Assembly: GCA_951812795.1 (NCBI GenBank)
Contig: OX638325.1
Span: 868,001-932,000, forward strand
Direction: 5' to 3'
Source of the DNA: an uncultured Dehalococcoidia bacterium
GTDB lineage: Bacteria; Chloroflexota; Dehalococcoidia; Lucifugimonadales; Lucifugimonadaceae
DNA length: 64,000 bases
In this document: positions 10,490 to 64,000 of the stretch, piece after piece
How positions within the stretch are numbered: position 1 is the stretch's first letter
How the letters are laid out: every line of letters starts with the position of its first letter
Made by a program: the position numbers and the translations under genes
Notes under the pieces: model-generated
What the model was told of the DNA's origin: nothing
The model's database searches: none
The model's input: the letters and a program-made list of their open reading frames with translations, nothing else

Positions 10490-10668
10490 GAGCGACTGCT
10501 CAGCCAAATCCGGCAGGTCTCCTGGCTTTCGGATCATCACCCATCTCGCGCCTTCCCATCCATCGTGGACAGTGGCTCTAGCGAGGGGCTACCCGATTAC
10601 AGTGGCGCCTCCGCAGCGGATTCTCACCGCTTTCCCTATCTGTGCTCGATCGTCGAGCACCACCAGTT
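10490..10668 (-). ncRNA. Cobalamin riboswitch
   Basis: The minus strand contains a clear B12 box, AGCCAGGAGACCTGCC (10512-10528), and upstream the classic core with GGGAAAGCGGTGAGAATCC, then GCTGCGG and CGCCACTGTAA. These are the conserved segments of the adenosylcobalamin aptamer. It precedes the leftward btuC-btuF-btuD-cobO operon by about 120 bases with an intrinsic terminator between, so coenzyme B12 is expected to shut down uptake and adenosylation. Confidence 0.95.
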
Positions 10669-10800
10669 TTGGTTGGCTTTCTCGGTTCACGTTACCAGCA
10701 GTTGCCGATGTTGTCAACGGTACAAGCAGGTCATTTGCATAATCCCACTTGCGATGGGTTTAAGGTCAGGTCACCTGCGCCTCCCCGCTGCCCGGCACCT

Positions 10801-15432: not shown

Positions 15433-15530
15433 AGGCGCGTTAAAGCGCCTGCGGATGGGGTTGGCAGGTCGGGGTTGCTTGGGATTTGGGATTTGGTTTT
15501 GTTGTTCAGGTCTTTGTCATTGAGGTGTTT

Positions 15531-16205
15531 TTACGACTGTTGTCGAGTCACCGCCGCGTCGTCGGGGTTGCGGCCGGAATTTGGTTGTAGGTGGATCATA
15601 GGGTCCAGCGCCGCCGACGTCGCCAGCCCGTCGGCCCTCCGTGCGGCGCTTCGATGTCGCCGCCCGTCATCACTTGGTTCTTCAACCCCGCGTTGACACT
15701 GTGGCCATCCCCGCACGACGATGTGGAGACGACGTATTCGGATAGGAGGAACGATCGTTCGGATCTTGATCGGGAGCCCCTCTCTTGCCCATCCCCCTCT
15801 GGATTCCGGCTTTCGCCGGAATGACGGAGGGCCCGTCTGGAACGACGGGGCCTCGCCGGAAATGGCGGGATGCTCGTCGGTAATGACGGAGTACCCGTCG
15901 GTAATGACGGGATGCTCGTCGGTAATGACGGGGTACCCGCCGGAAATGGCGGGATGCTCGTCGGTAGTGACGGGGTACCCGCCGGTAATGGCGGGATCGG
16001 CAAGGGGAGGGAGTTCTCGACTGGCTTGCGAGGCGGAGTCCGCATTACTACTCCGCACCCGAACACTGCAGCACAGGCTCCCCCGTGACCGGTTTTGGTC
16101 GGCGTTGCGCATGACATCGATAAAGCTTGTGACGGGCACCGTCGCGGTGGGCCATGAGCAGTCGCTTTCACCTTTCGGCTTGGGCTGTCGCTTGTGGCTC
16201 GCCAT
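15531..16205 (-). CDS. Doubtful 224-residue frame crossing the tandem array
   Basis: ATG 16205 has GGGAG five bases upstream, and a TTGACA-N18-CATAAT promoter-like motif lies at 16352-16381, so the 5' end looks expressible. The first 70 residues (MASHKRQPKPKGESD start) match no family known to me. The middle is a 7-residue repeat (GYPVITDEHPAISG type) that simply follows the 21-bp DNA array, and the rest crosses an R1 copy. It may be a short real gene whose 3' part has been replaced by repeats. Confidence 0.25.
   Translation of the reverse strand: MASHKRQPKPKGESDCSWPTATVPVTSFIDVMRNADQNRSRGSLCCSVRVRSSNADSASQASRELPPLADPAITGGYPVTTDEHPAISGGYPVITDEHPVITDGYSVITDEHPAISGEAPSFQTGPPSFRRKPESRGGWAREGLPIKIRTIVPPIRIRRLHIVVRGWPQCQRGVEEPSDDGRRHRSAARRADGLATSAALDPMIHLQPNSGRNPDDAAVTRQQS
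15799..15827. repeat. R1 palindromic repeat next to tandem array
   Basis: Perfect short-form R1. Its tail GCCGGAATGACGG resembles the unit of the adjoining 21-bp array. Confidence 0.9.
15855..16001. repeat. 21-bp tandem repeat, seven units
   Basis: Seven contiguous 21-base units of the form G(T/C)CGGTAATGACGG followed by alternating GATGCTC and GGTACCC ends, giving a weak 42-base higher-order period. An 18-base partial unit precedes it. The unit resembles the 3' half of the R1 repeat that lies just upstream. Confidence 0.92.
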
Positions 16206-16351
16206 GTGTACTCCCGTCCGCAGACCTGGTTGTTTGTATGTGGGTTATTGCAGCATCGAAAAGAGTTGTGGCCACAACCCGGTTCGACGCGGCGATGTCT
16301 CTGGGCGCCTAGGCCGCGGTGAGGCTTCTCGGCCTTCGGCGCTTAGTTGTT

Positions 16352-16381
16352 ATTATGATACATGTGTTGGGGCAATGTCAA
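16352..16381 (-). promoter_or_regulatory. Promoter-like motif reading leftwards
   Basis: On the minus strand TTGACA (16376-16381) and CATAAT (16352-16357) are separated by 18 bases. It points into the doubtful frame at 15531-16205. Confidence 0.45.
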
Positions 16382-16495
16382 GTCTGATATAGGAACAATT
16401 GGCATTTTTGAACTATGATTTGAAAGATTGGGAAGGTTGGGAATGAGGGGGAACTGCTACGAGCGTGATTCGGGCATCCTACGCTCGCGTCCCCT

Positions 16496-50960: not shown

Positions 50961-51057
50961 GTGGTTGAACCACGGATTGCGCGTACGCCCGCCTGCGTTC
51001 TCATTGCGCTGCCAACTCTCAATCTCCCCCTGCGAGGAGACCTTTGCAAAACTCCAT

Positions 51058-51086
51058 CATTCCGGCGAAAGCCGGAACCCAGAGGG
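51058..51086. repeat. R1 palindromic repeat in inverse orientation
   Basis: Reads CATTCCGGC-GAAA-GCCGGAA, the opposite orientation to most copies. Confidence 0.85.
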
Positions 51087-51213
51087 GTGGTGCAATCGGA
51101 ACCCGGTCGCCGAAACAGTCGCTTCGTGACCCCAATTACCAGTTCTGCAAATGTCTCTTGGTGCCAAGCGAGCATGCCCACCCCTCCCCGGAGACGCCAA
51201 CCGGGAGTCCAAA

Positions 51214-51264
51214 CCTCCCCTTCGCGGAGCGAAGGGGACGCGTGCGAAGCACGCAGGGGATGCC
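51214..51264. repeat. R2 palindromic repeat in inverse orientation
   Basis: CCTCCCCTTCGC-GGA-GCGAAGGGG, then CGTGC-GAA-GCACG and AGGGGATGCC; reverse of the 15-19 kb copies. Confidence 0.88.
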
Positions 51265-51376
51265 CGAAAACAACCAGCATCCAAAACCCCTTCAGTTCCC
51301 CCTACACTACCAAACAGGAACCAAAGAACCCCCGACGCGCGAAATTCCCTATCGCCACTCAAAAACACACCTCGAT

Positions 51377-51408
51377 TTGACACAAACATACCGATACATG
51401 TGTACAAT
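51377..51408 (+). promoter_or_regulatory. Promoter-like motif before the candidate RNA
   Basis: TTGACA at 51377-51382 and TACAAT at 51403-51408, with a rather long 20-base spacer, in an AT-rich patch. Confidence 0.35.
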
Positions 51409-51419
51409 TAAGAATTGAA

Positions 51420-51965
51420 GACTTCAGGCAGAGCCGTGCCGACGGGTGCGGACACCAATCTAGCCACTGGAAAGGGAACAAGCGTTAGATCGTGAAAGCG
51501 CAACACACCATCAGCGAGTACACGGGGTCCTGCAAGGGTAACCCGGATTCGCGTGTTCGTGGAAGCCATCTCTGGCGACGCCCCTCAACCGAGTTAGAGC
51601 CGGTTGCAACCTCCAGCGGTTCCGTTCGAAGCGATCGATGTAACAAGTCCCGGTCGCCGAGGGCTAATGCACCCTCGGCAACACGAGCCAGCAAGACATT
51701 CAAACAATGTCGCGCCAAGGGCCGGGTAAGCGGTCGTGAATTCGGCAGACGTCGGACCCTTGTCGCCAACGGGTCGCGGCTACGGCACGAGGATGTGCAA
51801 AACTACCCGATGGGAAGCGGCCGAGCTCATACTCCAGGCCGTAACCCGGGCCCACGGTCTGGCAACGTGGGCAGTGACCGGACGAGGGAAGCTAGCAGTC
51901 CAATATCTCGCACAAAGCGGCAACGCCTGATGGATTGGCACCTCACGCGAAAGGTGCCAATCCCC
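51420..51965 (+). ncRNA. Candidate structured non-coding RNA (unidentified)
   Basis: About 550 bases with no convincing protein but many strong local hairpins and A-rich junction-like segments: ATCTA/TAGAT around GGAAAGGGAACAAGCG, GCCGAGGG-CTAATGCA-CCCTCGGC (51656-51679), ACATT-CAAAC-AATGT, and a final 12-bp stem GGATTGGCACCT/AGGTGCCAATCC (51932-51963) that could close or terminate a transcript. A promoter-like motif lies just upstream. The GTGCG near 51447 could be a group II intron 5' boundary, but no domain V is found. It is not recognisable as RNase P, tmRNA or SRP RNA. Confidence 0.35.
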
Positions 51966-52142
51966 TTCAACGGCAGAAACAAAACCACTGCCCCCAACCA
52001 CTAAACCAGGGCAGCCCACCAACCAAAACCAGCGGAAAACACCTCCGCCTTTTGAACACGCCCATCCCCCTTGATGTCCAAGGGGGAATTAAAGGCGGTT
52101 TAGACTTGGCGTTTCGCTTTGCACTCCGTTGCCCGGCCCTTA

Positions 52143-52170
52143 TGGATTCCGGCTTTCGCCGGAATGACGG
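52143..52170. repeat. R1 palindromic repeat
   Basis: Short-form copy upstream of the cupin gene. Confidence 0.88.
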
Positions 52171-52334
52171 AAATTTGCAATGGTTTCGGCATCTAAGGGG
52201 AGGGGTTGGGTGTCTAGGGGGAGCGGTGGGCGTAGGGGCCTTGGGAGTGGAAGGGTAATCGTGGTTCGCAATGGGCGTGGGGTTTTAAGATTGTTCGCGT
52301 TCGTTGTTGTTTGAACACTGAAAGGACTGTTGAG

Positions 52335-53075
52335 ATGGGTATCAATCGCCGAGGGGCTCAGGAGATAAGTTCTCCGTGTTCGGATGTTGAGATTCGGGTG
52401 ATGTCGGATAGCTCGACGGGGTCGGAGATGATGACGGTGTTGGAGATTGGGTTGCAGCCGGGAGGATCGACGCCGTATCAGGCGAATGTTTCGCATGAGG
52501 AGTCTTGGTTCATCTATTCGGGGGATGTGACGTTTGTCGAGGGTTCGGTGCGTTATGCGTTGACGTCTGGGGATTGTGTGTTGGTGGCGAAGGGGATTGG
52601 GACGTCGGTGGAGAACAGGGGTTCGGCACCGGCGCGGATTGTGACGATGAGTCCGGATCCGTCGGTGGTTCGTGAGGAGGTTGAGATGGGTGAGGTGGTT
52701 GATGGATTGCCGGGGGAGAATGTTTTGATTCGTTCGGAGTATGAGGCGTTTGAGTTTGCGCCGGGGGTGATGCGTGTGGATATGGTTGACGACAGCCGGG
52801 GGGCACGGAGTTCGTATTTTTCGGAGTTGAGTTTTTCGCCGGGGACGCATACGCCGAATCATTACCATCCGGCGCATGAGGAGACGATGTTTTGCATCGA
52901 GGGATCGATGACGGCGGTATATGGGGAGGACGATGGGATTCCGTTGCCGGCGGGCGACGTCTTTTTGTGCGAGCCGTTGGTGCGCCATGCTACGAATAAT
53001 CCGTCATCGGAGCCGAGCAAGTTGCTGGCGATTCACCCGGTGTTGAACCCGCCGCCGCGCGTGATGTGCGATTGA
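52335..53075 (+). CDS. Double cupin protein
   Basis: The 246-residue protein has two cupin barrels. The first has [29 protein letters not shown]; the second has [31 protein letters not shown], with a complete H-x-H-x4-E metal-binding motif only in the second. This matches the bicupin (ureidoglycine aminohydrolase-like or oxalate-type) layout. ATG 52335 with AAGGA upstream is preferred to TTG 52311. The 3' end overlaps the convergent surface-protein gene by 86 bases. Confidence 0.85.
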
Positions 53076-56000
53076 GTAATTTGGAACCGGCGAGGATTAG
53101 CAAGGGTCCGACGACGAATAGGAATAGAGATGACGCGAATGCGGATCTGGGACGTCGTATGTCATTACCGACTATCCCATGAATATCACTTGGCGATTTC
53201 ATCACGGCAACGAACGAGTTGATTTCGTTTATCACGAGTTCAGACACGTCTGCGCATATCTTGGTGAGGCCATTTCTGTCATTTTGTACACTGTCGAATA
53301 TCGCTTCGGTTTGGTGTTCCCCACCGACCGCCATTTTAGCGACCGAGAAATTCGTGTGCGTGTCCGATGAATCAGTTGAATATGAAATACATATACGAAT
53401 TGAATCTGAGAAATTATATGTAGTGGCTGTATTGTCAAATCGTTTGCGACGTGATTCTATTCTAGGAGTGATTTCGAATACATCGGAAACAATTTCGAAG
53501 CCGTTACCAATCTTATAGTTTTCAGAACGATCGGGCATTGAAATCCGTTGAACCGCTAAAAACATTTGGTCGCCCCAGAACATTGACTGCGAGTCAGCTT
53601 GTATTTCGAACCCCGGAAGCTCGGTTTCATTCTGCAAGATCGTAGAGCGACCGTTGGCGATCGAACCAGTGAACGGATCGTAGCTGCGATAACTGACCAA
53701 CGTGTCTTGCAACTCGATCCTTTGGGCTGCTGGCATGCTGTCGTCCCTTCGATTGAACGCCCGCACGCGAACACGGTAGTTGACGCCGGATTTCATCCCC
53801 GGGATAAGTGTGGATCGTTTGGTTGGAGGAACGAATATCGGAAAAGTTGGCGGTTCAGGGTACCAATCCACGGAGTAGGCGAGAATGTCGGTGCCCCCGT
53901 CCCATCGTGGGTTGTCCCAGTAAGCGACAATACCATGACGTCCGTGGACGGCGTCGAATTCTTCTGGTGGATCGGGGTCGGCGTTGCGCCTAGCCCGTGA
54001 TGTAACTCTTGTCGTAGATCCAGGATTGGGTAGGACCGTTGGATTGGAATTGGGAACAGGAGTTGTGGTCGGTGTCGATGGAATCGGAGCTTGATCGGTT
54101 GTGACCGACATGATCAACGGTTCGCTTTGACCAAGTGGGTTCAGAGCGCGCAGCGCGATTTCATAATTGGTTTCTGGTTCCAAGTTTTGGATCGTGTACG
54201 AACGAGTGTCGCTAGGCAACTCAACCGTTTTGGCGGTTCCAGGTTGGTTGGTGCGTTGCCAAGAGAATAGGTATGACGAAACTGGTCGTCGTATCGTCCC
54301 TGATTCGTCCAAAGGCTCATCCCATTCGATGGTTACGCTAGTGTCCGTTGCGGGCACATCCTCTCCGTCGTTCATCCACGGTTGACGTGGGACATTCGCG
54401 ATAACGCTGATATTTTCAGAAATTCGATCGTTGTCGTCATAGACGGCTGTAACTTGAATCTCATATCGAATGTCGGCTTGAATGTCGGGGATCGCGTAAC
54501 TTGTGACGGATGGCGGCAATTGGATCGGGAAATCAGTCGAATCTGAGGGTGCGGGTGACCAACTGATCTCATATTGGGTGAGCAACGACGCGTCAGAGGG
54601 TTCTAGGTTCCATTCGACTTCGATACCGTCGGTGGTCAGATTCTTGAATCTGAGGACTAACCCCCGTGGTGACGGTGTCGGGGTAACGGTGGGAGTTAGA
54701 GTTGGAGTCGGTGTACTCGTGGCCGCGGGCTGCAGTGTTATAGCCGATTCAATGAAGGCCGCACTGTAACCGAGTGGGTTTTTCGCGCGAAGATCGAATA
54801 CGTAAGCGGTGCCGGGAGTCAGTTGCTCGACGTTGAAGGAAAAAACGTCAGGTCCAATCGTCGCTGTGCTGATAGCCGATCCAGGTTCTTCTTCTCTCCA
54901 AGACAGCTCATAGCTGTTGACTGGTCGTCGTATTGTGCCCGTCCCGATCTCCGGTACTTCCCAACCCACTCTGATGCTGGTTTCGGTGATCTCATCCACC
55001 TGAGCGGTGGGTTGCCGTGGGACGTTTAGCAACAACGCTGTATCTACGCTTGAGACGGTTCCGTCATCGAAAATTACGTCGATTTGTATCTCGTATCTGA
55101 CACCCGCCTCAACTTTCGGGATGGTGTACGAGGAGGCTGGAGGCAACAGGATCACCGGCATTATTGGAGCATCCGCCGTTAACGGATCCCAACTGATTTC
55201 AAATCTCAATGGCTCTCGGTCTCCCGACTGTGAGATATACCAGGTGATTGTCGCGCCTAGGTCCGTCAATTCATCGAAGGATGCAACAAGTTCAATCGGC
55301 ACGTGGGTTGGCGTCGGTGTTGATGATGGGGTGTGAATCGGCGTGGGTGTCGGCGTCGGCGATACGGTCGGGGTGAACGTCGGCGTCGGCGATGCGGTCG
55401 GAGTAGATGTCGGCGTAGCCGTCGAAGTCGGCGTAGCTGTTGGCGTGGGTGTAGCGGTAGGCGTCGGCGTCCGCGTAGCGGTTGGGGTTGGCGTGGGTGT
55501 AACCGTAGGGGTTGGTGTAGCCGTGGCAGTAGACGTAGCAGTCGGAGTCGGTGTGGAAGTCGGCGTAGCTGTTGGCGTGGGTGTAGGTGTATTCTGCAGT
55601 TCCGTTACCGCGACGGCCGCATTTGCGGTGAAGCGATTACCCGCGTATCGCAACTGCGCGGTGATTTGATCGACGCCTTGACCCGCCGATGTAGGTGCAG
55701 TGTAGTTGGCGATTGCGCCAGTCTCGGCGGTGATGGTGCCGTGAGTTGCCGTCCACGTGAGTTCGGCGTTGTCGGGGAGTTGATCCATTTCGTTGTTTTC
55801 GCCGTCGTATATCGTTAGCTCGACTTGGGTTGTGGAACCTGTAACCACTGAGATATCGATCGGTTCGATCTCGACGCTCGTGATACATGGATCGACGCTG
55901 GGCACGTTTAGCGAAAGGCCGTTTTGTGGGGAGACGGGTATGTCTGCGTGATCGTCGTTGAATCGGGCGGTGACGGTGATGGTGTGTTGTCTGGTGTTGC

Positions 56001-56817
56001 ATTGTTGACCTAGGGTTTGGTATGCGTAGAAGGTCTCTCGTGAGTTGTCAAAGGTCGAAATATGACAGGTGACGACGGAGTTTGATGCGGAACATCCCGT
56101 TGGCAGATTGTCGAAGCTTGTGCCGGGTTCAAATGAGATTTCGATACCGGGGTCGTCGTCTAGTCTGCGCCTGTCAACACGAGTGGACCAAGTTGCGACT
56201 GCGGATTCGGAGTCGTATTGAGGATCGGCAATGCGGATTGTTGGGCAGTTGAATTCTCGATGTGTGAGTATTCGGCTTGGATTCGAGGCGATGATCGATT
56301 GACCATCGATAGTGGCGTTGACCGTCATGCGAACGCGGTTGTTGCCGCAGATATATTGGATCGAAGTTGCGAATGTGATGGTGAGTTCGCTGTTAGCGGT
56401 CACGTCGCAGTCCCAACCTTCGTCCGTGGCGTCACACGCCCCGGTCGTTTCGGTGACGATGGTGCCGATGCTCGACGTTGCGACTACTGCCAATTTGCCG
56501 TCGGACTGACTGCGGTTTGTGAGGACAACATCCCAGTAACCGATATGGTTGTCGATGTCTTTGCGGGTTGCGCTCACGTTGACATCAAAATCGGCTGGGT
56601 CGCTCGAACGCTGGAATAGAGATCTGTCGCGCGGCAATGCGGGCAGCAACGCCGGAGTTACGCTCAGTTGTTGTTCATCATCCATAGCGTGGATGAATGA
56701 TGACTGTTCGTCATTGACTGGTGATCCGTAAGTGCCCCCGTATATCGACGCGAGCACATAGCCAAACAGTGCTATGGTGGCCAAGGCAGTGATTCCGGCG
56801 TTTCGTCGATTTCTCAC
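52990..56817 (-). CDS. Large secreted/anchored protein with fibronectin type III repeats and a Thr/Pro stalk
   Basis: The 1275-residue protein starts at GTG 56817 with a basic N-terminus and hydrophobic segment ([19 protein letters not shown]), a signal peptide or anchor. Residues about 60-400 are beta-rich, then a Thr/Pro/Ala/Ser stalk of about 95 residues ([15 protein letters not shown] type). Several fibronectin type III-like domains follow, marked by (T)YEIQVxAVYDD and [18 protein letters not shown] patterns; a short second T/P linker separates two of them, and another precedes the last ([11 protein letters not shown]). A C-terminal hydrophobic stretch ([14 protein letters not shown]) with a basic tail could anchor it. 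Probably an extracellular adhesin or matrix protein; partners unknown. Confidence 0.85.
55320..55592. repeat. Degenerate GGCGTNGGNGTNG array encoding the Thr/Pro stalk
   Basis: Roughly 270 bases built from 6-base GTCGGC/GTAGGC-like units, the coding DNA of the Thr/Pro/Ala stalk. Slippage in such DNA would vary stalk length between strains. Confidence 0.8.

Positions 56818-63941: not shown

Positions 63942-64000
<59 letters not shown>

Follow-up and report, generated by a model that had tools for sequence, protein, structure and literature searches.

Does a bacterium keep many copies of a structural RNA other than rRNA, or did a selfish element evolve around an ornate RNA? This question is raised by a stretch of DNA in the genome of an uncultured Dehalococcoidia bacterium (G000; one contig, 2.61 Mb), of which we analysed 64,000 nucleotides, positions 868001-932000, referred to here as the window. 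Among bacterial RNAs, few are large, structured and without an assigned function, and the known ones have repeatedly proved to be unusual machines. A preliminary description had taken window positions 51420-51965 for an unidentified large structured RNA that is poor in protein-coding sequence and has a promoter-like motif in front. A DNA search of G000 and of related genomes revealed that this stretch is repeated, which allowed copies to be compared.

The window copy and its surroundings

The RNA of the window is ~0.5 kb (~500 bases) long and lies on the plus strand; units in other species reach ~1.2 kb. Its conserved core spans 51425-51929, and with the promoter and the 3' hairpin it extends over ~51377-51963. 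The limits of 51420-51965 held only in part, since the true unit starts upstream, at the -35 box near 51377. The promoter-like motif in front was confirmed and consists of TTGACA (-35 box, 51377-51382) and TACAAT (-10 box, 51403-51408); its activity is inferred and its spacing of 20 nt is long. The core is closed by a long-range helix, P1, pairing 51425-51439 with 51917-51929, which reads CAGGC...GCCTG in the window's subfamily and ATCGCCGC...GCGGCGAT at the same place in many others. A 5' domain of many helices (51440-51691) includes the hairpin GCCGAGGG/CCCTCGGC at 51656-51679 and, at 51683-51691, ACGAGCCAG, which contains GCCAG, the 5' strand of a proposed pseudoknot. The variable arm (51695-51711) is a minimal hairpin of 17 nt, GACATT/AATGTC, in the window copy, and is lengthened in other copies of the same subfamily by up to 228 nt of GC-rich, REP-like units. 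The 3' domain (51714-51921) was described by the covariance model R1 and the wider models R2 and R3, and comprises 40 pairs in seven helices. Helix 7 of this domain is the hairpin GGGCCCACG-GTCTGGCAA-CGTGGGC at 51848-51872, with 96.6% of cells paired, and its loop CTGGC (51859-51863) would be the 3' partner of GCCAG in the pseudoknot.

The motifs and stems quoted in the preliminary description were all present where it had placed them, including the A-rich junctions GGAAAGGGAACAAGC (51469-51483), GCAAGGGTAACCC (51532-51544) and GGGAAGC (51812-51818). The 12-bp stem GGATTGGCACCT/AGGTGCCAATCC at 51932-51963, which had been regarded as the end of the RNA, is present but is a separate 3' terminal hairpin rather than the closing helix, and no T run follows it. 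The proposal that a GTGCG marks the 5' end of a group II intron is not supported, as this GTGCG (51446) is within the RNA and no intron end was found there.

A plus-strand unit at 51373-52071 is ~94% common to the recent paralogues L031/L169 and L032/L165, with its left edge at the -35 box or slightly 5' of it and its right edge beyond the 3' hairpin. A larger block of 1317 bp (50968-52284), made up of the RNA unit and neighbouring dispersed repeats, is absent at the orthologous site of the genome G004. Dispersed REP-like intergenic repeats, which occur dozens of times in this genome and its relatives, were observed at 51037-51159, 51206-51269 and 52062-52180, and units similar to them fill the variable arm in some RNA copies. 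A second, diverged copy of the RNA was detected in the window on the minus strand at 15434-16382 (E 8.9e-16 with R1 and 6e-34 with R3). It has a promoter (TTGACA/CATAAT, 16382-16349), a core (~16299-15549) within which the model matches at 15567-15770, and a 3' hairpin (15434-15449). The window also contains, on the minus strand, a cobalamin riboswitch (10495-10682, 112 bits), a tRNA cut by the window end (63945-64000) and a 1275-aa open frame with long Pro-Thr repeats (52990-56817).

Conserved structure and absence of coding constraint

Folding of the stretch was modestly better than that of shuffled sequences on either strand (z -2.87 for plus and -2.98 for minus). Since the z-scores were similar on both strands, the argument depends on comparison of copies. 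In a structure-blind alignment of nine copies, 11 of the 40 predicted pairs had changed on both sides with pairing kept. For 44 distinct copies the covariation was 0.377, compared to 0.144±0.007 after shuffling and at most 0.067 in slid registers. With 85 distinct copies it was 0.420, compared to 0.146±0.005 for shuffled and at most 0.063 for register-slid alignments, and double-sided changes were found in 33 of the 40 pairs of the 3' domain. The figures for 44 and 85 copies lean towards structure, because those alignments had been fitted to the model and shuffling takes no account of relatedness; the nine-copy alignment was unfitted. Wobble pairs are frequent in the plus orientation, helix 3 having U-G in 53 copies, which favours the plus strand as the RNA.

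Compensatory change was not confined to the 3' domain. Among eight copies of subfamilies A and B, 10 of 71 predicted pairs in the 5' domain vary on both sides, and the hairpin GCCGAGGG/CCCTCGGC is replaced by GCCGGGG/CCCCGGC in subfamily B. The 3' hairpin of copy L032 is GGATTGGCACCC/GGGTGCCAATCC, again a compensatory change, and unrelated hairpins occupy this place in other subfamilies. The GCCAG just 5' of the variable arm is complementary to the helix 7 loop CUGGC in every copy in which both strands were located, suggesting that the RNA may be pseudoknotted. This is inferred from complementarity, and covariation cannot prove it because both strands are nearly constant.

The reading frame of 170 aa at 51492-52004 is open, but in none of the six frames did substitutions between subfamilies favour a codon position (e.g. 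39/35/39), and the identity of the translations was at or slightly over the substitution-placement null. The stretch is thus protein-poor, as had been claimed, and the finding that would have refuted an RNA, a homologue encoding part of a protein, was not borne out, as the copies lack codon periodicity. Two checks named in the preliminary description were also run. Comparison with related genomes revealed compensatory changes, which support a structured RNA. The search of Rfam 15 (4227 models) with the window copy and 12 loci covering other subfamilies, at gathering and permissive thresholds, gave only chance matches and nothing near the gathering score. The claim of an unidentified large structured RNA is therefore supported: there is no Rfam match, homologues exist, compensatory change is strong and no coding signature was seen. 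Collectively, these results make it very likely that the stretch belongs to a real structured RNA family that is new to Rfam.

Copies, distribution and evolution of the family

The model R1 detected 17 copies in G000, on both strands. Matches with R2 and R3 at E <= 0.001 numbered 17 in G000, 10 in G002, 25 in G005, ~35 in G006 and at least 6 in G004, and the copy number is ~10-35 dispersed copies per well-assembled genome of one marine SAR202 genus. The family was found in all seven genomes of the genus, the two most fragmented having only one or two matches. Most of these genomes are fragmented assemblies with contig breaks inside copies, which leaves counts and some copy identities uncertain; G000 is a single contig. 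The aligned copies split into subfamilies, with identity in the 3' domain down to ~45%. An exact-pattern scan named two records of the same genus, a Dehalococcoidia MAG and SAR202 cluster bacterium bin127, the latter being the genome of a symbiont of the sponge Aplysina aerophoba (PMC5649159).

Outside the genus, R1 gave no convincing match in 147 genomes of the order, nor did R2 and R3 in 41 of the family, R3 in 393 of the class or R2 in 400 of the phylum, so that in the genomes sampled the family is restricted to the genus. Searches over more than 40 genomes used stricter filters that lose weak matches, and distant relatives are not excluded. A weak R2 match in another genus (G166, E 3.6e-4) lies in apparently protein-coding DNA and was taken as chance; other weak matches outside the genus were in G160 (E 0.004), G161, G008 and G018, with E values ranging from 0.004 to 0.6. 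Exact 20-base matches in Bordetella, a goat Bacillota MAG, an Ignavibacteriae MAG and a sponge thaumarchaeal contig were likewise taken as chance, R1 giving nothing beyond E 0.04.

Promoter-like boxes lie at a fixed place in the family. Of 36 copies examined, 34 have a TTGAC box (TTGCC in two copies) 47-87 nt upstream of the core. A TATAAT-like -10 box usually follows after a spacer of 16-17 nt, or of 20 nt in the window's subfamily. That each copy is transcribed from its own promoter is inferred from sequence alone, without transcript data. A ACATNNGT-like motif is often present in the spacer between the boxes, in the window (51377-51408) and in other copies, and could be an operator or an extended -10 element. 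Only one of the 17 copies in G000 (L164) is 5'-truncated; the other 16 are full length, retaining promoter and core. A conserved end motif, TTAAACGCG, was seen in some copies only. In several recently duplicated pairs the similar part begins at about the -35 box and ends just beyond the 3' hairpin; other pairs are also alike in adjacent dispersed repeats. Common terminal repeats, target-site duplications or a linked transposase were not seen at the unit ends, by eye, at 20 paralogue-pair boundaries and in ORF lists. Neighbour genes and orientation differ from copy to copy with no constant neighbour, which argues against a cis-regulatory leader. DNA methylase or restriction-like genes were noted by eye beside copies L033, L037, L045, L049 and L074, without an enrichment statistic.

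Comparison of flanks identified 13 species pairs at ten sites in which the copies share their orientation and lie at comparable distances (within ~250 nt) from downstream DNA that matches. The downstream flanks at these orthologous sites are ~72-87% identical, and at one of them (L161 of G000 and L233 of G006) both flanks match. Identity between the paired RNAs in the 3' domain is only 45-64%, and in 12 of the 13 pairs the resident RNAs are 93-100% identical to a paralogue in their own genome, the exception being L157, whose best paralogue is 57% identical. Orthologous sites thus hold differing subfamilies, with near-identical copies within a genome. In a tree of the copies, grouping was by species and subfamily, not by site, and orthologues of 93-100% identity were found only in the closely related pair G000 and G004. 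This pattern reflects either concerted evolution or the replacement of entire units, the sites staying fixed, and the process is undetermined. Misassembly may swap near-identical copies within a draft genome; alone it would not yield subfamilies specific to a species. The window copy itself is a recent gain, because G004 lacks the 1317-bp block and G002, G005 and G006 have no copy at this site. The L163 site is likewise a recent gain, as the matching place in G004 has no copy.

Host RNA gene or selfish element

In the open literature, where we searched it, this RNA is not described. RNase P RNA and tmRNA were excluded as identities, since the genome has its own at 1098279 and 636739, respectively, and ARAGORN detected no tRNA or tmRNA in the window search or at the 23 loci examined. 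For omega RNAs of the HEARO/IscB type there was no Rfam match, and no common ORF was seen beside the copies by inspection, the neighbours not having been searched against protein families. The nearest RNAs in kind are ROOL, GOLLD and OLE, to which no family relation was found. ROOL and GOLLD are bacterial noncoding RNAs of 600-800 nt or more, intricately folded and of unknown function, in which some parts are conserved and others variable (PMC12286853). The SAR202 RNA resembles them in being large, ornate, of unknown function and partly variable. In contrast to these RNAs, which are encoded by phages or prophages, often near tRNA islands, it is chromosomal and multicopy, and neither a tRNA or phage link nor a covariance-model match was found for it. 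OLE RNA is likewise a large (~600 nt) structured bacterial RNA (PMC9723947). It differs in belonging to Gram-positive extremophilic or anaerobic hosts and in forming a ribonucleoprotein; the SAR202 RNA has no Rfam match, a far higher copy number and no constant neighbour gene. rRNA operons are multicopy structured RNA genes whose copies within a genome are more alike than orthologues across species, and in this the SAR202 RNA resembles them. It differs in that it has no sequence relation to rRNA, the difference between species extends to whole subfamilies, and the way in which copies are homogenised is undetermined.

Several rival explanations can be set against a host RNA. The idea that the 170-aa frame is a short protein or a decayed gene draws on its being open in closely related copies and on arm-length differences of 96, 198 and 228 nt, all multiples of three; the even substitutions over codon positions, the near-null amino-acid identity and the strong RNA covariation all but exclude it. 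A group II or other self-splicing intron without an ORF would account for the large multidomain fold and for the GTGCG at 51446. It too is all but ruled out, since no domain V or intron boundary was identified, there is no match to an Rfam intron family even at E up to 10, the copies are intergenic with promoter-like boxes of their own, and the closing helix CAGGC...GCCTG (or ATCGCCGC...GCGGCGAT) is not a splice boundary. An ornate RNA borne by a phage or satellite, of the ROOL/GOLLD type, would fit the similar size and ornateness, and a terminase-like gene, identified by eye, adjoins copy L031. This is very unlikely, as no match to the family was found in viral contigs, phages or plasmids, no tRNA was found at the 23 loci and there is no Rfam match.

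The main rival is a non-autonomous selfish element of no benefit to the host, mobile via its structured transcript, whose repeated insertion at favoured sites swaps the subfamilies. Copies are dispersed, in both orientations and beside unrelated neighbours, and bursts of near-identical copies occur in each genome. In the criteria of a bacterial RNA survey, many-copy motifs of inconsistent orientation are mobile or repeat candidates, usually read as selfish (PMC11109978), and the SAR202 RNA meets this criterion. The recent gains at the window and L163 sites and the limitation to a single genus also fit such an element. The published example of a mobile or repeat candidate is a single long stem (PMC11109978), whereas the SAR202 RNA is a multi-helix RNA of ~500 nt with promoter-like boxes of its own. 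Against selfishness, inspection of the unit ends gave no terminal repeats, target-site duplications or linked transposase, and many sites are common to species whose flanks are only ~72-87% identical. Unlike a decaying repeat, all but one of the 17 copies in G000 are full length with a promoter, and promoter, 3' hairpin and fold are kept in nearly all. We therefore regard the selfish element as the weaker reading, though it remains a serious one.

On balance, and as a judgement, we favour a family of putative trans-acting RNA genes, of unknown function, maintained by the host. Against this reading are the lack of transcript data, the absence of a known binding partner or phenotype, and the 20-nt promoter spacing in the window's subfamily. 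In the favoured model, each copy would be transcribed from its own promoter, in quantity, as a large noncoding RNA with a conserved and probably pseudoknotted fold that acts in trans. The many copies may serve RNA dosage, and they may be homogenised by gene conversion between transcription units. The RNA would act as a scaffold or assembly, either an RNA-only oligomer or a ribonucleoprotein, and not as a cis-regulator of its neighbours. A bolder reading, which we advance tentatively and would not yet back, is that bacteria of this genus possess a host-functional, non-ribosomal RNA class with tens of dispersed, self-promoted copies per genome that evolve in concert. What is new is an RNA family absent from Rfam 15, found in every genome of the genus examined and at a copy number far above that expected. 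If the bolder reading is true, the need met by so many copies would perhaps be high abundance, or assembly with identical copies.
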